Part shown: in pieces, positions 1,701-63,965 of the stretch
Layout of the letters: each line of letters opens with the position of its first letter
Position numbering within the stretch: the first letter of the stretch is position 1
NCBI GenBank assembly: GCA_963082975.1
Contig: OY720345.1
Span: forward strand, 1,067,001 to 1,131,000
Reading direction: 5' to 3'
Source of the DNA: Labia minor
Lineage: Eukaryota; Arthropoda; Insecta; Dermaptera; Spongiphoridae
Length of the DNA: 64,000 nucleotides
The notes under the pieces: generated by a model
Databases searched by the model: none
What the model was told of the DNA's origin: nothing
The model's input: the letters and a program-made list of their open reading frames with translations, nothing else
Made by a program: the position numbers and the translations under genes

Positions 1701-1709
1701 ATATTAATA

Positions 1710-2603
1710 CAGTGATGCCTCGCATAACGAACGCCTCGCACAGCGAACGCTTCACACAACGTACCATAATGAACTAAATTTCATGATTCATACAACGAAC
1801 TTCGTTTCACACAACGAACTCGCCCGAGCTTCCACGATCGCTGCCGTTGTATTGCATCCCCTTGGGCAGGCACTGCAGGCAGTCATTATAGTCACTGTAC
1901 TTAACTTAAACACGTATCGCGGCAATCGTTCTTCATTACCATATTCAATTATCATTATCATTCAATATATTTTTTATATCATGACTTCTAAAAAAAGCAG
2001 GAAGGTGATTTCTGGTGAAATAAAACAGGAAATAATTAGAAGGAGTGAAACTGGGGTAAAACAGTGTGACCTCGTCAAAGAGTTTGGCCTCAGCAAGACC
2101 ACTATTTACACCATTTTGACAAATAAGGATGCAATCAAATCAGCCAAAGTAGCCAAAGGAGTATCAAAATTATTTCATGAAAAACATAGGTCTTCAATCC
2201 ACGAGGAAATGGAGAGGCTATTAGCGATTTGGATTAAGGACAGGCAGGTGAAAGGTGACGTAACAACCCAAGATATTATCTGTCACAAAGCCAAGAGAAT
2301 TTATGACGATCTAAAGAAAAATGTCCCTGGAAGTAGCAGCAATCAAGATAATGAAGAAGAATTCAAAGCCAGCAGGAGGTGGTTTTTTAGATTTAATTAT
2401 GTTTTTTTCTAAATATGTATCTAAATAAAAATAGTAACAAAAATTTTATCTTTTATTATGTCATCTTAGCATATTTTATGCTACAGAACGAATTATTTTT
2501 TTTAACATGTATTGTTACGGGAAAACGCGTTTCACATAACGAACTTTTCGTATAACGAACTTGCTCCTGGAACGAATTAAGTTCGTTGTGTGAGGCACCA
2601 CTG
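1710..2603 (+). mobile_element. pogo/Tigger-like Tc1-mariner element, internally deleted
   Basis: The left end reads CAGTGATGCCTCGCATAACG and the right end, reverse-complemented, CAGTGGTGCCTCACACAACG. Both are flanked by TA, the Tc1/mariner target. The GTTCG/CGAAC motif recurs inside both ends. At 894 bp it is far shorter than a complete element because the DDE catalytic half is missing. Confidence 0.85.
1981..2412 (+). pseudogene. pogo/Tigger transposase N-terminus: CENP-B-type DNA-binding region only
   Basis: The best start is the ATG at 1981; an upstream in-frame ATG at 1783 would read through terminal-repeat DNA. The 143-residue product has a CENP-B/Psq-type helix-turn-helix at about residues 8-55, including VKEFGLSKTTIYTIL. 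A second CENP-B/Tc5-type DNA-binding domain follows at about 70-138, containing ERLLAIWIKD, AKRIYDDL and a degenerate RRWFFRF near the end. Family members continue for several hundred residues with a DDE nuclease. Here a poly-T tract and stop follow directly, so no catalytic residues remain. The DNA-binding part is free of stops, so it could still be translated, but transposition by this copy is not possible. Confidence 0.8.
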
Positions 2604-8393: not shown

Positions 8394-9590
8394 TCTATAA
8401 TAATAAAAGCAAGTGTAATGTGTCTGTCTGTCTGCCTGTCTGTCTGTCTGTCTGACCGAGTCTCCAGCCATATCTATCGCACGCAGGGACCTGGAATTTT
8501 TTACACGGAAGCACAAAGGGGCTGGCCACCAGACCTCGAAGCCCGATTTTCGATTTTTTAATTAGAACAATTTTAAAAAAAATTATAAAAAATAATTAAT
8601 GAAAAATAGTTTAGTTACCATACTAGATCATAGAGGCGCTGGTGGCGATAATTTGGCGGTAATTTAAATTCTGAGCAATGTGCAGATAAAAATCTTTTTA
8701 TATATCTATTGATATTTTCAATATCTCAATTGATCTTATTGGCCTTTTAAACTTTGAAAACATTCACATTACGGCTATAATTTAATACTATTAATTTTTA
8801 AGATTATGTGAGTAAATTATTTTAATTAAGAAAATTTGATCTCATAATTGGATTTTCACGTAAGATTTTAATATATAATATATTTTTTAATATTATTTTT
8901 ATAGTAGTTTAGTGTTATGGTAATTTTATATTTTATTTTTATTTTGTTTACTTTGATTTTTTTTTAAATAAATTAATAACATTTAAAGTAGCATAAAAAA
9001 ATTAATCGAGGCAGGAAAATTGATGGGGTTTGAAATTAATAGTGATAAGACAAAATAATTAGTATCAGAGAGAATAATATTTGCAAAGAATTTAAATCGA
9101 GGTTACAATCTGGAAATTATTATCAAAGGGGATCAAAATTATTAAATTATTAATTGTATTATATGGGTGGGAGGCATGGTCTATAACCCTGGGAGATGAG
9201 AATAGATTCAGAGTATTTGAGAATAGGATTCTTCCCAGCATTTATGGGACAAAGAAAGATGAGGATACCGGGGAATAGCGGAGACTGCATAACAAGGAAT
9301 TGTATGACCTCTATGCATCTCTAGATATAGGTCATAAAATAGAGAAGGCTGGGATCGGCAGGGCACATGGCTAGAATGGGAGAGGAAAAATATATTGATG
9401 GGGAGTTCGATTGGAAAACGTCTGTGTGGAAGACCAATTGTGAACAGGGTGGACAATGTAGGAAGGAACGTGAGAGAGATGGGACAGGTTAGGAGTTAGA
9501 TGGTTATAGCTCAGAATAGGGACACTCGGGGGGGGGGGGGTACAGGGGGCGGAGCCCCCGTCTAGATGCGAAGAGCGACGAAGGAGCATA
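8394..9590 (+). mobile_element. Helitron family C, degraded copy carrying a LINE fragment
   Basis: The 5' end is A|TCTATAATAATAAAAG followed by a TCTG-repeat tract at 8420-8455. The 3' part has the GGGGGCGGAGCCCCC hairpin (about 9545-9560) and the degenerate second hairpin GAGCGACGAAGGAGC. The terminal CTAG is gone. The LINE relic lies between. Confidence 0.6.
9000..9535 (+). pseudogene. LINE reverse-transcriptase C-terminal fragment inside a Helitron
   Basis: Conceptual translation across frameshifts gives VLYGWEAWS, RFRVFENRILPSIYG, KKDEDTG and LHNKELYDLYASLDI. This is the conserved region after the RT palm of non-LTR retrotransposons (YG.E.W; R.FE..ILR.IYGP..DE). Several stops and shifts make it non-functional. 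The same segment recurs at 33240, 39600 and 42850. Confidence 0.75.
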
Positions 9591-9599
9591 ATAATTGAA

Positions 9600-10290
9600 A
9601 GTCAACCTAGTTTTTCCATTTTCTGTAACATTAGTAATGATTCCAGAATACAAAGCTTTCTCAAAGGTGAAAGTATTGTCTAATTTTCCGCTCTATAGGC
9701 ATTTTGGGTGTTTTTTCTTTGTTATAAGTTTAACATATAGAAGGTAGATAGATCTTCTTCACTTTTCACTTTTACGTGAAATAATGGCATCACATTCCGT
9801 TTGAACCCCACTTTTCCTGAATTCATTTGCCAGGATGCCTCCCATGTTCCACAGCTGCTTTCAGTAACTTCTAAAATTTCCCTTTATAGGAGACATCTAC
9901 AAAATGACAAATATTAGAAAGCTTAAAAAATTCAGTAGTTGACAGTCTTATTCCAATATTTCTTAGCACTTTTCATAAGAAAAACTAGCAAAAATTGAAT
10001 TTTACAAACAGACTTGTTTATTGATTTCCGCCATTATGTTTTATGGTCAACCTTTTCAAACTGTTGTGTTCAGTTCTGTGGCGAAGAGAAAAAAAAGTCA
10101 CTTCTTTTATGTTATTTCCTACCACCGTTTTCTTATTATGTTGCTTTTAGTGTTACCTACTGGGTATTTTACCTTATGTCTATTTGAACTTCAAATAAAA
10201 TATTCAATAAATATGGTCTAATAATATTAAACTATATCAATTACAATAAATTTAAATAAATAAGTTAAATGATATTTCATTAATAGAAAT
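9600..10290. other. Intergenic DNA, no gene seen
   Basis: Moderately AT-rich unique sequence. Short frames only, without domains. Confidence 0.5.
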
Positions 10291-10293
10291 AAT

Positions 10294-10931
10294 AAGTTGA
10301 CCTGAGCCAGGTCCGAACCGACCGACGGATTGAAGTAAATTAATTTCCAGCTACAGAAACAATTTCAAATAATTTAAATCTATTCTATCTATTAATGCAA
10401 TAAAAAACAGATAGGCATACATAAATAATAAATATAAACATTTTTAATTTTATTTCATTTATAATATATATGCAAGACCAGGCTGTGGCGTCATGAATGG
10501 CTGGATGACGTCATATAATTTTAAATCAAGAAAAAACTAATAAATATGATTTTTCTCTAGTATAAAACCAATACAAAGTGAATGATTCGTACTAATATGT
10601 AAAAAATCTCCTCATGTAAAATTTGGTGTGAAAATTACCCTTCCCTTATTATCGTCGATCGCTAATACTACCACTTCCGGTTTCCGGATTTGCACCAAAA
10701 GTTGATCAATTCATCCCACTGATGCATTAAGTAAATATACCAAATTTCATCGAAATCGGTTGAGCCGTTCAGGCTGTACACATCTATACGGACGGACGGA
10801 CGGACAGGCATCATGCTAAAAATACTTTTTTCTGTTAAGAAAATGCATGATTCGTGGAGATATGTAAAAATCTCCACATGTGAAATTTGGTGTGAAAACA
10901 ATACCTCCCTTTCTATCGTCAGTCGGTAAAA
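10294..10931 (+). mobile_element. Family B non-autonomous element, copy 1
   Basis: It starts AATAAGTTGACC..., with CGAACCGACCGACGG just inside, and ends near CGTC(A/G)GTCGGTAAA. ACCGACCGACG and CGTCGGTCGGT form subterminal inverted repeats. A GGAC tetranucleotide run lies in the core. A segment of about 85 bp running from CATGATTCGTGG to the CGTCGGTCG motif occurs twice, in the middle and at the end. Copies at 26344, 30412, 46683 and 48522 match along their length. Confidence 0.75.
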
Positions 10932-15479: not shown

Positions 15480-16345
15480 AGGAGTTAGTCAGGGGTGCAT
15501 ACTATTGCCTCTTCTATCCAATCTATTAATTCGGAGGTGAGATTCAGGGAATCACTGGAGGACGTTCCGAGTGGAATTAAAGTGAACAGTAGGCCCTAGA
15601 AATAACATTCGATATGCGGACGACTCAGTGATCGTAGCAAAGTGTCAAGCAGAACTACAACATATGCTGGACAGACTAGTAGAATATAGTGAACAATATG
15701 GCCTGAGCATCAATACAGCAAAAACAAAAGTGCTAATGCGCGCTATTTGCTAAAAAAAAAAACCTAAAATCGAAAGATTGAGCAAATCGAGTCCTTCAAA
15801 TATCTGGGTACACAAATTACCAAGAATTGCGAAAGAAAAAAGAAAATAAGATCAAGAAAGACGTTCACTAATATGAGAAAATTATTCACAAGACCTGAAA
15901 TTAATCTCACATTAAGAGTCAGAATGATGAGGTGTTATGTTTTCCCGATTTTCTTCTCTGTGTGTGTTGTGTTAGGCTTGGACGTTAGATGCTTTTCTCG
16001 AGAAAACAAATTGAGGCTTTTGAAATGTACATACCTGTACCGAATAATTCTGAATATTCCATGGACCAAGAAGGTTTCGAACCAAGAAGTTCTCACCCGC
16101 ATGAAGAAGATAGCCGAAATCCTTTTAACGATCAAGAGGTGAGAAATATGAAATTCTTCGCCTGATTATCGAGGGGAAGAGATCGGTGGGTAGGCGCGCC
16201 AGAACTCATGGCTTGGAAATCTGCTTAGATCCGTAGATGGTTTGGGCGTTCATCAATTGACATATCTTTAGAGCTGTTGTTTCCAAAAGATGTCTTGCCA
16301 TATGGATCGCTAACTCCTCTTTAGGGAGAAAGCGTCTTAAGAAAA
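15480..16345 (+). pseudogene. Non-LTR retrotransposon reverse transcriptase relic (5'-truncated)
   Basis: Translation across frameshifts gives a decayed motif B (GVSQGCILLPLL), a retained motif C with catalytic dyad (IRYADDSVIVA), then EYSEQYGLSINTAKTKVLM (motif D). Degraded C-terminal parts follow, related to the minus-strand element at 62600-63965, ending VVSKRCLAIWIANSS. An AGAAAAAGAAG-type tail follows at about 16340. Both RT aspartates of YADD are present, but multiple stops kill the frame. Confidence 0.8.
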
Positions 16346-25690: not shown

Positions 25691-26343
25691 CAAATACATT
25701 CAATTCAATTAATTAATTCATTTATTTGTTTTTAATTTTTCAGGAAGAAACTTATCTAACTTGTCTAGCTTTTCTGCAATCGACGTATAACCTGGAAACG
25801 ATTTAGCCATCCTTTAAATGATTTAAGGATAGTTAAATTTAACCAGTGAAACTAGTAAGATTTTATTATAGGTGTAGGATTTGTTTTGTGTGAAATATCG
25901 TTTAAATAAAAGTTAAGTAATTCTCCTTTCAAAATTAATATTGGCGGCCCTGAATTACTAGTTTCATTCTAATTATATAAAAAAATAGTATAAGCCATCG
26001 GTTTAAACAAGCTTTTAGCTTTATTCATATATTATATAACTTTTTTGTATGTATTTAATAGAAATTTATGATTATTAAGAAATCATGAAATATATTATTA
26101 TATATTTATAATAATAATCTACATCTTGAATATAAATATTACTTACTTAATAAGAAAAATTAAAATAAAAATACATAAATATTTTTATATTTAATTTAAA
26201 TTTATTTATTCAAATCAAAATTAAAATTAAATAAAGATATAATCCATAATCAATCATTTATAATAATGTTTTGAATTAAAATAAGTTAACAACCGTTTTT
26301 TATTCTTCAATCTTATATGACATTAACAAAAAAAAAAAAAAAA

Positions 26344-26704
26344 TAAGTTGACCTGTGGCCAGATCCGAACCGACCGACGGTTTGAAGTAAATTAATTTCC
26401 AGCTACAGAAACAATTTCAAATAATTTAAATATATCTATTAATGTAATAAAAAACAGATAGGCATAGAACATAAATATTTTTAATTTTATTTTATTTATA
26501 ATATATATGTAGGTTGAGACGTCATGAATGGTTGGATGACGTCATATAATTTTAAATTAAGAAAAAAACTAATAAAGATGATTTTTCTCGAGGATAAAAC
26601 CAATACAAAGTTCATGATTCGTGGAGATATGTAAAAATCTCCACATGTGAAATTTGGTGTGAAAACAATACCTCCCTTACTTACTATCGTCGGTCGGTAA
26701 AAAG
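26344..26704 (+). mobile_element. Family B element, copy 2 (internally deleted)
   Basis: Both family ends are present, but only one of the two internal CATGATTCGTGG units remains, giving about 360 bp instead of about 630. Confidence 0.75.
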
Positions 26705-29079: not shown

Positions 29080-30410
29080 AAAAGCATTAAAAGCTTTTTT
29101 ATAGCTAGAACATGAATTGAATGTTACGAATATATTGATCTTAACCATTTTTTTTTATATTTTAAATATAAAAAAGAATAGAATCATTGTATAACATTAT
29201 TATTATTATTTTTTTTTTTTTAATTAATTTATTAAATGAAAATAACTTCCTTTTGAATTAATCAAACATGAAATTTAATAAAAAGGATAATAAAGCAATT
29301 GTGCTTTTAATATAGTTAATAGGCACTTGTATGTATATCATTGGTATCATGAACAATTTTCATCATTAACATTAATTTTCATTGTTCTTAGGAAGATTCT
29401 TAATAAAATAAAGAGAAATAAAAATTCAAAACATCTATGAATTAAGCTAAATGATAATGTTCAGGATTTCAATTTTTTACTCTTTTATATATATATATAT
29501 TAGGATAAATAAAAGCAGGGAGGAGTAAAAAATGGCCTGTTTCTTTGGATGAGAAAAATGATTAACATCCTAACTTCCCCAACATTAATTTTTCTTATTA
29601 CCCATTTCTTGACTTTAATATTTTGCTGAGAAAAATTTCTTCAGAACCCTAATCGAGTTATCTTAATGCCCTTAAGCTCAGGTCTTTCCTTCGCTGTATT
29701 TCACCCGCAGTGTCAAAGGTTGGAGGGCGGAAGTTAGGCATTTATTAATAATTTCTTCACGTGGTAGGTTTATCAGAGTATGTTTTTCTTAAAAATCTTA
29801 TACCAACACCTTTTTCTAATTCTAAACACTTGAAATATGTTATATTATAATATATATATATAAGTATCCTATTTTATTTTAGAATTAAATTGAGTAAAAG
29901 TTTATATAAATATATATATATATATATACTTTTTGTAAATAACAGGTCTTGAATAGAATATTTTCAACCTATATTTTTATTTATTTATTTTTCCTTTTCC
30001 ACTCTTTGGAAACTAAACTTGACTTTACTCACGACAAAAGTTTCTGGAAATTTATTCTTTTGGAAAACGAGACTTTTATTTTCTTAGAAAACTATCATTT
30101 ATTTACCTATAGAAAATAAAAAAAAAATAAATAAATGAAACTCAAAATTTTATGGTAAAAGGAAAGTTGACTTTATACTTTTATTATCAAAATATCTTGA
30201 TTTATTTATATGAAAAAAATATTAAATTGATTTTCGAATATATCCTGTAATCCACGTCTGATAAAAAAATATTTGCCAGAATAAATAGAAGAACAAATAC
30301 AATAATAATTATTTAATAAACATTATATTTTGAATTCGTAAATATTTAGGAATAAGTGATTAATCGGATATGTGTATATTCTTGTATTATTAATATAAAA
30401 AAGATACAAG
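29080..30410. other. AT-rich intergenic DNA
   Basis: Several (TA)n tracts (29489-29502, 29849-29862, 29909-29928). No gene. A short GC-richer patch at 29690-29740 is unassigned. Confidence 0.5.
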
Positions 30411-30411
30411 A

Positions 30412-31025
30412 AAATAAGTTGACCTGTCGCCAGGTCCGAACCGACCAACGGTTTGAAGTAAATTAATTTCCAGCTACAGAAACAATTTCAAATAATTTTA
30501 ATATATCTATTAATGTAATAAAAACAGATAGGCATATAACATAAATATTTTTAATTTTATTTTATTTATAATACCAGGCTGTGACGTCATATATGGCTTG
30601 ATGACGTCATATAATTTTAAATCAAGAAAAAACTAATAAATATGATTTTTCACGAGGATAAAACCAATACAAAGTTCATGATTCGTGGTGATATGTAAAA
30701 AATCTCCTCATGTGAAATTTGGTGTGAAAATAACCCTTTCTTTCCTATCGTCGGTCGCTAATACTACCACTTCCGGTTTCCGGAATTGCACCAAAAGTTG
30801 ATCAATTCATCCCACTGATGCATTAAGTAAATATACCAAATTTCATCAAAATCCGTTGAGCCGTTCAGTCTGTACACATCTATACGGACGGACGGACAGA
30901 CGGACAGACATCATGCTAAAAATACTTTTTTCTGTTAAAAAAATGCATGATTCGTGGAGATATGTAAAAATCTCCACATGTGAAATTTGGTGTGAAAACA
31001 ATACCTCCCTTTCTATCGTCGGTCG
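30412..31025 (+). mobile_element. Family B element, copy 3
   Basis: Full 5' end, GGAC/GACA tetranucleotide run (30887-30910) and both duplicated units. The 3' end stops at CGTCGGTCG, without the usual GTAAA. Confidence 0.75.
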
Positions 31026-31155
31026 AGTGGAGCTGCCTGCCCTGATAAGACGACATGATACCTTGAGGAAAATATCCAAGAATCATCTTACTTGAAGTCC
31101 CAGTGTTCCCCGAACTCATTATTAATTTGAATAACAGCTAAGTAGTCGACTAATA

Positions 31156-31269: not shown

Positions 31270-31344
<75 letters not shown>

Positions 31345-46682: not shown

Positions 46683-47320
46683 TTTTACCGACCGACGATA
46701 GTAAGGGAGGTATTGTTTTCACACCAAATTTCACATATCTCCACGAATCATGCATTTTCATAATAGAAAAAAAGTATTTTTAGCATGATGTCTGTACGTC
46801 TGTCCGTCTGTCCGTCTGTCCGTCAGTATAGATGTGTACAGCCTGAACGGCTGAACGGAGTTTGACGAAATTTGGTATATTTACTTAATGCATCAGTGGG
46901 ATGAATTGATCAACTTTTGGTGCAAATCCGGAAACCGGAAGTGGTAGTATTAGCGATCGACGATAGGAAGGGAAGGGTTATTTTCGCACCAAATTTCACA
47001 TGAGGAGATTTTTTACATATCACCACGAATCATGCACTTTGTATTGGTTTTATCCTCGAGAAAAATCATCTTTATTAGTTTTTTCTTGATTTAAAATTAT
47101 ATGACGTCATCTAGCCATTCATGACGTCACAGCCTGGTCTTGCATATATATTATAAATAAAATAAAATTAAAAATGTTTATATTTATTATTTATGTATGC
47201 CTATCTGTTTTTTATTACATTAATAGATATATTAAAATTATTTGAAATTGTTTCTGTAGCTGGAAATTAATTTACTTCAAACCGTCGGTCGGTTCGGACC
47301 TGGCCACAGGTCAACTTATT
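46683..47320 (-). mobile_element. Family B element, copy 4
   Basis: Reverse orientation: starts TTTACCGACCGACGATAG and ends at GGTCAACTTATT. Both duplicated units and a TCTGTCCG tract (46798-46823) present. Confidence 0.8.
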
Positions 47321-47344
47321 TGACTTGTAATAATGACGATTTCG

Positions 47345-47500: not shown

Positions 47501-48520
47501 CACTTTTTTAAGCTCTACTCGAATCCAAAATCAAAATTTAAAAATTCGAAAATTTTTGGGACAGACACAGGCACACACACAGACACACAGAAATATAGAT
47601 TTAATATTAAAATTTATATTTATATACTTATTGTAATTATAAATCTTGAAAACATTTTAAAAACATTGTTTCTTATTTTGATTAAAATTACATTTTCATT
47701 CTGTAAATTAAATAATTTTATTTCATTTAAATAAATATCTATTTTTAAATATTTTTTGCTCTCTACATTATTTATCTAATTCTCACAATATATTATTAAG
47801 ATCATATAAATTGGAATTATTTTTCAATTTTGTGATAAATACGAATAAAAGTTCGTTGATAGTAATGCTTCCTAGCATTCCCAGATGTTTTAGTTATGAA
47901 TTTAATATAATAAAAAAATAAGATTGGCAATGTACAAAAAAAAAATATTTTCACAGTTAAACCTTATAATATTATTTTCTTCTCACTCAAAAAGGACAAG
48001 TCATAAATTAAAAGCATAATTGTGCCTTGTTTATCAGATATTTTCAATGTTTATCAAAGAAAATGTGTTGAATGTTTTTTTAATGCCATTAAGATAAAAG
48101 ATATATTTTGTTAAACAATAATAAAGAAATTCTATTCTCATATAAATCTAAATATTACAACACTTTTTTTCCATAATATATAGATTAACTTGAATTGTGT
48201 AAAATATAAATTAAAAACATTAAAAACAAAAGCAAAAATTTTTTATGGCGCCTTGAAAATAAGCTGACATAATATTTACACTGTAGCCATGCGTGTTGTA
48301 ATGTCATGTAAAGAGGTGTGTGTGCGATACGTGAATGAATGGGGTCGGGGTGGGGTTTGGGGGAGGGGGAGAAAAAACACTCCTTTGTAGCAAGCCGTAT
48401 GTTCAATGTTTGATCCTAAGCATTTTATATTACTAAATATTAGTTTTGATGCAATGAAAATTAATTTTGTAAATGATCTGACAAATGTATTTAAAATTAA
48501 GTCATGAATAAATTAAATTG
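47480..48520. other. AT-rich intergenic DNA
   Basis: No supported gene. A G-rich patch at 48330-48375 is crossed by a minus-strand frame without domain. Confidence 0.5.
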
Positions 48521-48521
48521 A

Positions 48522-49150
48522 AATAAGTTGACCTGTGGCCATGTCCGAACCGACCGACGGTTTGAAGTAAATTAATTTCAAGCTACAGAAACAATTTCAA
48601 ATAATTTTAATATATCTATTAATGTAATAAAAAACAGATATGGATAGAACATAAATATTTTTAATTTTATTTTATTTATAATATATATGTAAGACCAGGC
48701 TGTGACGTCATGAATGGCTGGATGACGTCATATAATTTTAAATCAAGAAAAAACTAATAAAGATGATTTTTCTCGAGAATAAAACCACCACAAAGTGCAT
48801 GATTCGTGGTGATATATAAAAAAATCTCCTCATGTGAAATTTGGTGTGAAAATAACCCTTCCCTTCCTATCGTCGGTCGCTAATACTACCACTTCCTGTT
48901 TCCGGATTTGCACCAAAAGTTGATCAATTCATCCCACTGATGCATTAAGTAAATATACCAAATTTCGTCAAAATCCGTTCAGCCGTTCAGGCTGTACACA
49001 TCTATACGGACGGACAGACGGACAGACATCATGCTAAAAATACTTTTTTCTGTTAAGAAAATGCATGATTCGTGGAGATATGTAAAAATCTCCACATGTG
49101 AAATTTGGTGTGAAAACAATACCTCCCTTACTATCGTCGGTCGGTAAAAA
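48522..49150 (+). mobile_element. Family B element, copy 5 (most complete)
   Basis: AAATAAGTTGACCTG start, CGAACCGACCGACGG, GGACAGAC run, both duplicated units, and CGTCGGTCGGTAAAAA end. It lies 670 bp upstream of the small gene. Confidence 0.8.
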
Positions 49151-49782
49151 ACAACAACAAAATTAATACCTGAAAACTACTTAGAAAAATGTACAGTAAA
49201 AGATGTATTGAAGCGTTAAAATCTTTGCACTCTTATGAAAGAAAATAAATGAGAGTGAATTGAAATTATTAACTAGAAAGACGTTAATGAAATCATTCAT
49301 CATTAATTTCAAAGAATATTCTTTGCTCTATTTAAAAGTAAACATCAAATATATGTTCATCGAATTCGTCAAGAAAAGAAAGACACAACAACGTCTATAA
49401 ATTTGATTTTCATTTTTTAAAAATTTATATTTATTAATTGACATAAATTAATATAAGAGAGAGCAAAGGTTGTATTCATTTACATTGGTAAAACATGTTA
49501 AAGAATTCCATATTATATTATTAATATTAATAATTGAATTTCGGATAAAATAAAAATTAAAAATATAAATAACTCGTAATACTATTTTTAAATTTTATCA
49601 AATGAAATTTTAATTTTATGTTTATTAATTAGTTATTTTTTTTTATAAAATATTTTTTTCTAATTTATTATTTGTATAAGATTAGAAAAGTTATATATAA
49701 TCAATTCATAAATTTAAATTAAAAAATTAAAATAGTTATTATAAAAATTAATTGTTGAAAAAAAAATAAATAAACATTATCA

Positions 49783-49787
49783 TCAGT
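49783..49787 (+). promoter_or_regulatory. Possible initiator (TCAGT) of the small gene
   Basis: TCAGT lies about 30 bp before the ATG at 49817, within ATCATCAGTAATAG. It matches the arthropod initiator consensus and would give a very short 5' untranslated region. No TATA box stands out in the AT-rich upstream sequence. Confidence 0.35.
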
Positions 49788-49816
49788 AATAGCATTGAAT
49801 TAACAGCAACATCAAA

Positions 49817-51216
49817 ATGAGTTCGTTTTTGAAATTTGGATTTCTTACTCGGATAAGTAAGTATTTTTATATTTCTTGTTTTCTTAATAATTAATTTTAA
49901 AATAAACAGAATTTGAAAAAGGGGATTGAAGATTTAAAAAAATAATTAATAAATATTAAATAAAATAAATTAATTCGTTATTTTTTTATCATTTAATTTG
50001 TAGACAATTTATTTTTAATTATTTTTTCAAAATAATTAAATTAATTAATTTAGGAATATTAATTAAAATGATTAAATGATTAATTTATTTTCAACGATTC
50101 CAATAGTTTTCCATTTGATTATTTTATCCAACATCTACAATATATCAATATATGTATATCTAATTTATATTTAAGCAATACTAATTTTTTGTACAAATTT
50201 TATTTCTTGAAAATAATTATATTTGTAATTTGATATTTTCTATAATACACAATTGATTTTCAATTGAAATGCTTTTAAAATTTAACAAAATTTATTTATA
50301 TATGAAATTTTATTTTTATAAATTAACAATGTAATGCGAAATTAAATAAATTAAAACAATCTTAATGCTATATCCCCATTGCCAAAATTAATTATTTTTT
50401 CATCTATTCTATTTTGCATATAGTTTATTTTAAAATAAACATTATAAGTATCATTTATTATGTTTTTTTATATTTATTATTATTTTTATAATTAGATCAT
50501 ATTGTTTTGGTTTTTTGTTTTTTTTTTTTTTGCATTCCATAATAGCGCATTCAATAAAACTTCTACGATTATATAATTTTAAAAATATTTTTATTAAGAC
50601 ATAAATATATAGAAATGTATATATTTTTAGAGGGAATAACGGGACGAGTACAACCCAGTCTCAACTTTGTATCGAGTCGGTGTCCACCACCGAAAGATCC
50701 CTGTAACCCTTTACCACCTCTTTGCCAACCACCGCCACCGGTATGTCCACCGCCCAAATCGGATCAACCATGTCCTGATCCTTGCGGGGAATTTGCAACT
50801 ATGTGCTCGGACTTTGCACCATGCGTCCCTTGGAAAGAGCACACATCTCGTTACCATCGAGAATTGAATTTTTGTCTCATCTCAGGTCTCACAAGCTTAA
50901 TTGTAATGATTATTTTGGTAAACAATATTTCTTACATATTATGTTTTTAATCATTTATTTATTTATATATATATTTTTAAAATTATTTATATCATAATAA
51001 TTTATTTGAAACAAAATAAATAAATTCTCTTTATAATACAATCTGTTAAATTCAGAATCTCAACTATATTATTTTTATATGAATATAGCATACAAATAAA
51101 TACATCATTTAATATAATTATTAATTTTTGAGTAAAAAAAATCGATTATTTTTTAGGTGAAGATCAAAGATCCAATAGCAATAAGCTCAGATGTTTACCG
51201 TGGAGTCGACGACTAA
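49817..51216 (+). CDS. Three-exon gene for a small Cys/Pro-rich single-pass membrane protein, family not recognised
   Basis: Seen: exon 1 is 49817-49856 (ATG to a donor reading A|GTAAGT), exon 2 is 50631-50917 (acceptor TTTTTAG, donor TTG|GTAAAC) and exon 3 is 51157-51216 (acceptor TTTTTTAG, stop TAA). The exon 1/2 junction splits one AAG codon and the exon 2/3 junction is in phase 0, so the frame stays open for about 128 residues. Residues 1-30 are basic, serine-bearing and free of acidic residues, like a mitochondrial presequence. Cysteines at about 31, 38, 45 and 52 are exactly seven apart in a proline-rich stretch (CPPPKDP, CNPLPPL, CQPPPPV, CPPPKSD); more follow at 61, 65, 72 and 78. One hydrophobic segment spans about 93-110, followed by a short polar tail ending RGVDD. 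An ATTAAA lies about 30 bp after the stop. Inference: a small organelle or membrane protein. The gene model is fairly sure; the function is unknown. Confidence 0.72.
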
Positions 51217-51449
51217 TGACCGAGCTACTTTCACTCAGAGTTTAAATTAAATTAAAATTTTCATAAATTTCTTATTTATTTTTTATGTAGTATTTGATTA
51301 AAGAATACTTAAACAAAGATCTTATATTCTTAGTTTTTTTTCTTTTAATCTAGTTTAATCTTATAAGAATTAATATTTTTTATTAAATATTTCAGATAAT
51401 CTAATCTGAAAAAAATATAGGCAGGTATAATGAAGATTTTAATTTGTTC

Positions 51450-56078: not shown

Positions 56079-56690
56079 TTATGGCGTTAGGACTTTTCTA
56101 AGAATATAACAAGTTTGTAGAATAACTGCTTTCTGAATAATGATGGAAAGTTTATTCGATAGTCCTGATACCTTTAAATTATCTTTAAAGTTCACTGAAG
56201 ATAGTCCTTCTACCGACATTACAATTAGAACTATTTTCACACTAGTCAACTTCCACAGAGACTTCAGCTGCATAGGAGGATTTTGGTATTTGTTGTATTT
56301 CTCCTTCTCAGTTTTTGAGACGTTGTCGGATAAAGGGATGTCCACCTCTATTATTGAGGTCTTTTTCTCTTTTTTATCAATCAACAGAAGGTCAGGGCGA
56401 TTGTAATCGATAGATTTATCGGTTATCATGGGACAATCCCAGTACAGCACATAGGAATCGGATTCTAAAACCGTGGGAGGTGAGTATTTATAATAGGGTT
56501 CTGGGATAGAGTAATAAGGTTGCACTTAAGGGAAATTTGTATGTAGAGGATCTTTGCCACTTGGTTATGTCTACAAGTGCAGACATTATCCGCTAGTGCA
56601 CTACAATCACCCGCGAGATGTTCTACTGTCTACCCACATCTGTGGGGTACTTGCTTGGTAGAACCCTGGTTCGGCTTAGATAGAAAAAAA
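56079..56690 (-). pseudogene. Non-LTR retrotransposon C-terminus with restriction-like endonuclease (R2-type)
   Basis: The main frame (56525 to 56079, 148 codons) begins QPYYSIPEPYYKYSPPTVLE and contains RPDLLLID (residues 43-50), then IIEVDIP (58-64). The R/K-P-D and downstream acidic residues fit the PD-(D/E)XK restriction-like endonuclease at the C-terminus of R2-type elements. It continues IQKAVILQTCYILRKVL and ends naturally. Upstream on the same strand, in another frame, is VEHLAGDCSALADNVCTCRH, matching the Cys/His finger that precedes the nuclease. So at least one frameshift near 56520 and loss of the RT. Activity is excluded. Confidence 0.8.
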
Positions 56691-57914: not shown

Positions 57915-58349
57915 AAAAAAACGATTTTTTTAATCGATATGTAACATTGAATCGATCTTGTCAATCGATATTTCACACAAGAAAATCGACATTCGATATT
58001 TTTATAGAAAATAAAAATAGGAACGTAATACAGAAAATATATATGTAAATTACATAAAAGATTGTGGAATTTTTAAGTAAAAAATTATTTATTTGGATAT
58101 AAAAACCAACATTTCGACAATTCTCTGAAAAAAGCATAATTGATGCTGAAACGTCAGTTTTATTTCCGAATAAATAATTTTTCACTTAACTGAAAATTCT
58201 ACAATCTTTTATGTAATTTACATATATATTTTCTGTATTATGTTCCTATTTTTATTTTCTATAAAAATATCGAATGTCGATTTTCTTGTGTGAAATATCG
58301 ATTGACAGGATCGATTCAATGCTACATATCGATTAAAAAAATCGTTTTT
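57915..58349. mobile_element. 435-bp near-perfect palindrome (fold-back element) with Penelope-like centre
   Basis: Arms of about 180 bp (57915-58095 and 58166-58349) differ by about four single substitutions plus a short indel near the centre. The 70-bp spacer reads CCAACATTTCGAC...GCTGAAACGTCAG, the phrase typical of Penelope pseudo-LTRs. Each arm carries several ATCGAT/AATCGATAT motifs. Confidence 0.85.
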
Positions 58350-62599: not shown

Positions 62600-63965
62600 A
62601 AGTATATCTTGCTTCTTCTTGCTACGGCTTCTCCTTCAGAAGTTTGCCGATCAGTATGGCTATTTTCACCCTTGAAACCACAGCTCGGAACAACTCCGCC
62701 GAAGACAGACCAAACCACTCCCTCAAATTTCCGAGCCAAGAGATTCTTCTTCTCCCGGGTCCTCTTCTTCCTTGGATCTTTCCCTGTATTATCAACCGAA
62801 GAAGATGGTATCTGGCCCCCCGACAGACATGACCCAAGTACTGCAGCCTCCTTCTTTTTACGGAGTCAAGAACCTCCTTTTCTTTGTTCATTCTCCGTAG
62901 GATTTCTTCATTTGACACTTTATCGACCCAGGAGACTCGAAGCATGCGCCTATAGCACCACATTTCAAAGGCTTCAATCCTTTTTGTTGTTTCTTGAGTC
63001 AGGGTCCAAGCTTCAACGCCATATAAGAGTATGCAGAACGTAGCAACGGAGTAATCTCATCCTTAACTCTAATTTCAAATAATTGGTTGATAGCAAAGTA
63101 CGCACTCTTCCAAAAGCTGTTCGCGCCTGTTCAATTCTGGCCATTATCTCTTTGCGCTGCTGCCCCTCTGCGTTAAGCCAGGTGCCAAGGTATTTATAGG
63201 ACCGGACGTTTTCTATCAGCTTATTACCCACGCGCAGCACAATTGGAGTAGGACTGGACCTCCTTGAGATGACAAGTGTTTTGGTTTTGGAAGTATTAAT
63301 TTGTAGACCATATTCCTCACTGACTCTATTTACCACCTTCATCATTCTTTCAAGATCTTCAATATTATCTGCGATGATTACTGTATCGTCTGCGTACCTA
63401 ATGTTGTTTATAGGCGTTCCATTGACAATAATACCTCCTGGATCATCTCCCAATGCTTCACGAAATATGTTTTCTGAATACATATTGAAAAGTAAAGGCG
63501 ACAAGATACATCTCTGTCTTACTCCCTTTAAAATTTCAATTTGTTCTGACTGATGGTTATCCATTTTAACAGAGGCAGTTTGATTCCAGTACAAGTCCTT
63601 AATAAGTCTTATGTCCCGATAATCAATCCCACGATCTTCTAAAATCCTCATTAATTTATCGTGCTTTACGTTATCAAAAGCCTTGCTATAATCAACAAAG
63701 CAAGCATAGACATCTTTGTTAATGTCAAGACATCTTTGGGCCAACACATTAAAGGAAAAAAGGGCTTCACGCGTTTCTAGGCCATTTCGAAAACCAAACT
63801 GGGTCTCGCTAATGTCCTCTTCGCACTTCTTATAGATCCTTTGGTGGATAATCTTAAGAAGGATTTTCAATATTTGACTCATCAGGCTAATTGTTCTATA
63901 ATCATCACATCTGGTGGCGTTTGGCTTTTTCGGAAGGGCGACGAATGTTGACCTGAGCCAGTCAT
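62600..63965 (-). pseudogene. Non-LTR retrotransposon reverse transcriptase, 5'-truncated, one frameshift
   Basis: The minus-strand frame is open from about 63965 (WLRSTFVALPKK) to 63013. Counting from the Met at 63882, the RT palm shows QFGFR (28-32), FVDYSKAFD with the first catalytic Asp (62-70), GVRQRCILSP (120-129) and YADD (163-166). LQINTSKTK follows, and then SYKYLGTWL. Motif B normally reads GVRQGC; here Gly is Arg. At about 63025 a single-base shift separates this from the C-terminal part (62963-62622) with MLRVSWVDKVSNEEIL and RRRLQYLGHV, ending LLKEKP. The endonuclease half is absent; a TA repeat borders the truncation at the window edge. It is the least decayed LINE here, hence probably recent, but the frameshift and the Gly-to-Arg change argue against activity. 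Confidence 0.85.

Follow-up and report, generated by a model that had tools for sequence, protein, structure and literature searches.

A three-exon gene of Labia minor predicted to encode a single-helix membrane protein with a PF16020-like segment and a cysteine- and proline-rich arm

Structure of the three-exon gene

The window, meaning the whole 64,000-nucleotide stretch of Labia minor DNA that was analysed, carries on its forward strand a gene of three coding exons (49817-49856, 50631-50917 and 51157-51216), which join into 387 bases with a sole stop at the end and encode a protein of 128 residues. The coding part of exon 1 supplies MSSFLKFGFLTRI and one base of codon 14, and its donor, TAA/GTAAGT, agrees with the consensus at 7/9 bases. 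Intron 1 (49857-50630) lies in phase 1, has a G+C content of 0.14 and ends in ttttag. Exon 2 encodes the remainder of a presequence-like region, a Cys/Pro-rich arm (residues 31-78), the start of a PF16020-like segment and most of a membrane helix; within it, the Cys/Pro-rich block of codons 31-65 occupies 50721-50825, as counted from the exon map. Intron 2 (50918-51156) lies in phase 0, has a G+C content of 0.13 and is bounded by a weak donor, GTAAAC, and a 3' end of ttttttag. Exon 3 contributes VKIKDPIAISSDVYRGVDD and the stop TAA. Downstream on the same strand, two overlapping ATTAAA motifs at 51246-51256 are possible polyadenylation signals, a motif frequent by chance in DNA this AT-rich.

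Both introns begin with GT and end with AG, and their G+C content contrasts with that of exons 1, 2 and 3 (0.30, 0.48 and 0.42, respectively). Segmentation of 49650-51350 by G+C only, in which splice sites were not used and the numbers of segments were picked by the analyst, recovered exon 2 alone with three segments, exons 2 and 3 with five, and GC-rich islands at 49781-49861, 50630-50896 and 51156-51240 with seven. Island edges mark the exon borders at 49856, 50631 and 51157 to within 5, 1 and 1 bases, respectively; the second island stops 21 bases short of the end of exon 2. When 49001-50630 was scanned for ATG-to-donor stretches in phase with the acceptor at 50631, requiring a donor with at least 7/9 consensus bases, the proposed exon 1 was the single candidate. 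The exons, phases and GT..AG borders of the original prediction are borne out by the spliced translation of 128 aa and by the independent GC islands, and as far as the sequence alone tells, the three-exon gene is real. That the locus has instead decayed or lost its function, or arose by chance from AT-rich sequence, would fit the transposon remnants that lie densely nearby; set against 128 codons free of stops and frameshifts, two intact introns and GC islands at the exons, we regard it as highly improbable.

The coding region could also be real and the model wrong, either as a shorter single-exon gene starting from an internal ATG or through other intron 2 junctions. The frame of exon 2 is open from 50558 to 50950 with an in-frame Met upstream, and the exon 2 donor agrees with only 5/9 consensus bases, as does an alternative in-phase donor at 50902 whose use would cost five residues of the helix. 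An alternative in-phase acceptor would start exon 3 at 51163, with the loss of two residues. Against such a model stand the match of GC islands to exons 1 and 3, the 7/9 donor at the sole in-phase exon 1, and the extension of the Pfam match described below from profile position 41 to 45, four positions that exon 3 adds. We judge a wrong model improbable.

Features of the predicted protein

The N-terminus is basic, with five Lys or Arg (K6, R12, K14, R19 and R30) and no Asp or Glu in residues 1-34; the first acidic residue is D36. This charge pattern suggests mitochondrial import, though the helical moment of the region is not unusual, being reached by 2586 of 5000 shuffles. AlphaFold2, run on exon 2 alone and with no alignment, returned one confident helix at fragment residues 72-95 (protein residues 85-108), and the model outside it is of low confidence and unstructured, including the Cys region (mean pLDDT 54.5). 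Hydropathy reaches its maximum of 2.46 over the 19 residues from 94. One membrane segment had been claimed for the protein, and both the hydropathy maximum and the single modelled helix bear this out; COX7B-type subunits, too, are short proteins with one membrane helix. Likewise supported is the combination originally proposed, in which a presequence-like N-terminus is followed by a middle rich in Pro and Cys and by one membrane helix. The residues before the helix (77-92) carry a net charge of +1 and those after it (110-128) one of -1, a split that would fit an N-side turned to the matrix. COX7B itself is oriented with its N-side to the matrix.

A Pfam search placed residues 77-116 on positions 6-45 of the 52-position profile of PF16020 (Deltamethrin resistance, prag01), with an E value of 3.6e-4 and 20.7 bits. 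PF16020 was the sole family listed for the full protein at E up to 10. The score lies below the curated gathering cut-off of 27 bits and so short of formal membership; the protein had been called unrecognised, a description that holds in so far as the match is sub-threshold and gives way in the membrane part, where the resemblance was tested with controls. The match persisted when the query was restricted to residues 78-128 (E 4.1e-3) or to a stretch of 46 residues (E 4.6e-4), when it was the exon-2 open frame at 50630-50947 alone (E 6.4e-4), and when residues 31-65 were left out of the protein (E 1.8e-3); this last query also drew an NFRKB_winged match at E 0.023, under cut-off and at chance level. 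Twenty segment-shuffled versions, ten of full length and ten short, in which the helix was left hydrophobic and in position, matched no Pfam family, and 0/25 other open reading frames (ORFs) of at least 90 codons in the window matched PF16020 in scans at E up to 1 or up to 10. Because both controls were empty and the match was kept after trimming, the resemblance is, by these comparisons, weak yet specific and beyond composition and hydrophobicity, with the caveat that it overlies a helix-containing stretch, where spurious matches come easier.

The protein gave no match to PF05392 (COX7B) at E up to 10. Bovine COX7B matched PF05392 with an E value of 3.1e-33 and had no PF16020 match. As neither protein matches the other's family, the sequence tests made here do not link PF16020 with COX7B, and the likeness of the present protein to vertebrate COX7B, as a one-helix subunit of complex IV, is by analogy only. 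Searches of PDB sequences with the full protein gave nothing significant, the two matches (E 4.7 and 8.1) reflecting Pro-rich composition, and none with the membrane part. Two weak NCBIfam matches (E 0.094 and 5.4), far under the cut-offs, were taken as chance.

Nine Cys occur in the protein, at residues 31, 38, 45, 52, 61, 65, 72, 78 and 95, and the 52 residues from 29 to 80 include 8 Cys and 19 Pro. The spacing of seven residues claimed for the Cys at 31, 38, 45 and 52 is genuine; its being unusual is less secure. Among 20000 shuffles of residues 29-80, four Cys at a spacing of seven arose in 0.8%, and four evenly spaced Cys at any spacing from 2 to 14 arose in 8.7%, so that the heptads are not clearly beyond chance. 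Because evenly spaced Cys are common in shuffles of a stretch so rich in Cys and Pro, the heptad is weak evidence and a mild curiosity, whereas the Cys/Pro-rich composition is a real feature.

Several origins and folds for the heptads were considered and set aside. A 21-base tandem duplication is not apparent: Tandem Repeats Finder reported no 21-base array in 50560-51000, and the likeness among the four units, 0.50 against 0.47 predicted from the codons, was attained in 16% of 2000 draws. A coiled coil was dropped, the stretch being Pro-rich and predicted to be unstructured in the AlphaFold2 model. In a polyproline helix, with three residues per turn, positions seven apart fall on different faces. 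The protein resembles the CHCHD (twin CX9C) proteins, which are mitochondrial, in being small and containing Cys; the gaps between its successive Cys are 6, 6, 6, 8, 3, 6, 5 and 16 residues, with no neighbouring CX9C. The PDB match at E 8.1 was to CHCHD10 and reflects Pro-rich composition, and in the low-confidence model the Cys region appears unstructured, not as a hairpin.

The length of 128 aa exceeds the ~90 aa given in three reports of relatives, an informal criterion. Culex prag01 has 89 aa and two beetle prag01-like proteins have 96 aa each, according to the available part of one report (PMC8956072). The present protein resembles these PF16020 proteins in its match to profile positions 6-45 and, once residues 31-65 are removed, in length; it differs in its sub-cut-off score and in ~35 more Pro/Cys-rich residues. 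Since deleting residues 31-65 leaves 93 aa, inside the 89-96 aa of known relatives, we infer that ~35 residues, the Cys/Pro block, were added between the presequence and the membrane part.

These properties bear on whether the gene, if real, has anything to do with PF16020. It might encode a small single-helix protein unrelated to that family, possibly an orphan membrane protein of the mitochondrion or the secretory pathway, whose helix and its flanks resemble the profile by chance. The score under the cut-off, the missing PF05392 match and the ordinary amphipathicity of the N-terminus would all suit such a protein. So would the failure to find relatives, in collections that were viral and prokaryotic only: eight pattern stretches in viral contigs, none of them confirmed by tblastn, speak for viral records and not for insects, and 53 and 115 pattern stretches in genome contigs of the viral and prokaryotic collections, of which 0 were confirmed by tblastn, are not informative on insects. 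Chance resemblance fits poorly with the empty shuffles (0/20) and other ORFs (0/25), and with the relative-like length of 93 aa without residues 31-65. We consider an unrelated protein somewhat unlikely.

A COX7B-like interpretation

At a little better than an even chance, the gene encodes a diverged COX7B-like single-helix protein of the mitochondrial inner membrane, of the PF16020 kind, with ~35 extra Cys/Pro-rich residues. The connection to COX7B runs through Drosophila CG7630, which we take to carry the PF16020 domain; the likeness of the present protein to CG7630 goes by way of that domain and not by direct alignment. CG7630 is a small protein of 90 aa, mitochondrial when tagged (PMC4359375), and is reported as the insect COX7B homolog and a subunit of cytochrome c oxidase in two citing papers, from which the link to COX7B is taken (PMC10434966; PMC9953451). 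By the same accounts, COX7B was believed absent from insects before CG7630 was identified, and a complexome study placed the Anopheles ortholog of CG7630 in its complex IV cluster (PMC10434966; PMC9953451). The present protein is longer than CG7630 by the Cys/Pro arm. Loss-of-function phenotypes in flies, as given in the available parts of two papers, are a viable CG7630 mutant of lowered fitness (PMC11674832) and developmental arrest upon COX7B RNAi (PMC9953451). No paper using 'PF16020' or 'Deltameth_res' was found in the literature search, and among the best 15 of 740 and the best 10 of 200 papers none connects COX7B with prag01 or with the deltamethrin resistance protein.

Beetle relatives are reported to share <30% similarity with Culex prag01 (PMC8956072), which implies that the family diverges fast. 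The low family score of the Labia protein may mark either a sole copy that evolves fast or a duplicate that has diverged.

In the favoured COX7B-like reading, a nuclear gene would give rise to a small PF16020-type (prag01) protein of the mitochondrial inner membrane, whose fly counterpart would be the cytochrome c oxidase subunit that resembles COX7B. Approximately residues 1-30, the basic N-terminus, would direct import into the mitochondrion, and the single helix (approximately residues 85-108) would sit in the inner membrane, putatively at complex IV, its positive flank turned to the matrix and the 19-residue tail to the intermembrane space. The flexible Pro/Cys-rich arm between presequence and helix would then lie on the matrix side, where it could contact neighbours, bind metal or make disulfides under oxidising conditions.

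In a narrower form of this reading, the protein would be a paralog that the COX7B-like subunit has in the male germline, and its Cys/Pro arm would serve sperm mitochondria. A diverged duplicate would fit the low family score, and two prag01-like genes are reported within one beetle genome (PMC8956072). Precedents described in flies are knon for ATP synthase (PMC5364652) and COX4L for complex IV (PMC8950493), and proteins of the sperm mitochondrial capsule are described as Cys- and Pro-rich (PMC9956255). The resemblance to such SMCP-like proteins, which are mitochondrial and belong to the mammalian sperm capsule, is one of composition and not of sequence comparison (PMC9956255), and composition is a weak guide. 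A tblastn search within the window, moreover, returned the three exons and no further copy of the gene; the best match beyond them had an E value of 0.75. We hold a germline paralog to be unlikely, and the sperm role, drawn by analogy, is an idea to test and not a result. Quite improbable, and more specific still, is a subunit whose Cys/Pro arm is a redox-switchable cross-linker and, as sperm mitochondria mature, ties inner membrane rich in complex IV to condensed matrix; such a cross-linker would be a functional insect counterpart of the mammalian sperm mitochondrial capsule.

If the COX7B-like interpretation is right, an apparent orphan gene would be placed beside a respiratory-chain subunit, and a Cys/Pro-armed version would suggest that a fast-changing subunit can acquire new parts. 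It would also allow remodelling of complex IV for special mitochondria to be tested. Should the gene be simply the ordinary single copy of the species, its value would lie in a good model of a short-exon gene.

Surroundings of the gene

The original prediction held this to be the only convincing host gene in 64 kb, which the Pfam scan of all 25 other listed stop-to-stop ORFs of at least 90 codons did not disprove: transposase and CENP-B domains were the only ones over cut-off, and genes of shorter exons fall outside such a scan. These domains lie in an ORF at 1708-2409 (+), with Tc5-type PF03221 (E 9e-7) and CENP-B-type PF04218 (E 1e-6) DNA-binding domains. This ORF resembles the N-terminus of a Tigger/pogo-like transposase. 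A 148-codon open frame at 56079-56525 (-) matched L_protein_N weakly (E 0.0057; 17.1 bits, against 27 required) and by eye resembles the endonuclease-like end of a non-LTR retrotransposon. The open frame at 15768-16142 (+) had no Pfam match, and that at 62622-63056 (-), part of the 2-kb segment with the highest G+C in the window (0.387), had chance-level matches only (best E 0.085); by eye, both resemble the C-terminal part of non-LTR reverse transcriptases.

A search across the window with Rfam and ARAGORN (bacterial code) returned nothing. A dispersed repeat family has copies at 10278-10927, 26330-26694, 30401-31027, 46801-47326 (inverted) and 48510-49145, which are 60-98% alike over the matched stretches; the last of these ends ~0.67 kb upstream of exon 1. 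An inverted repeat at 57917-58094 and 58172-58349 has 178-base arms that are 93% complementary and 77 bases apart, which makes it a hairpin or a foldback element. Perfect GTCT repeats, 18.8 copies in all, fill 31270-31344, and shorter related arrays lie at 8421-8454 and 46790-46824.
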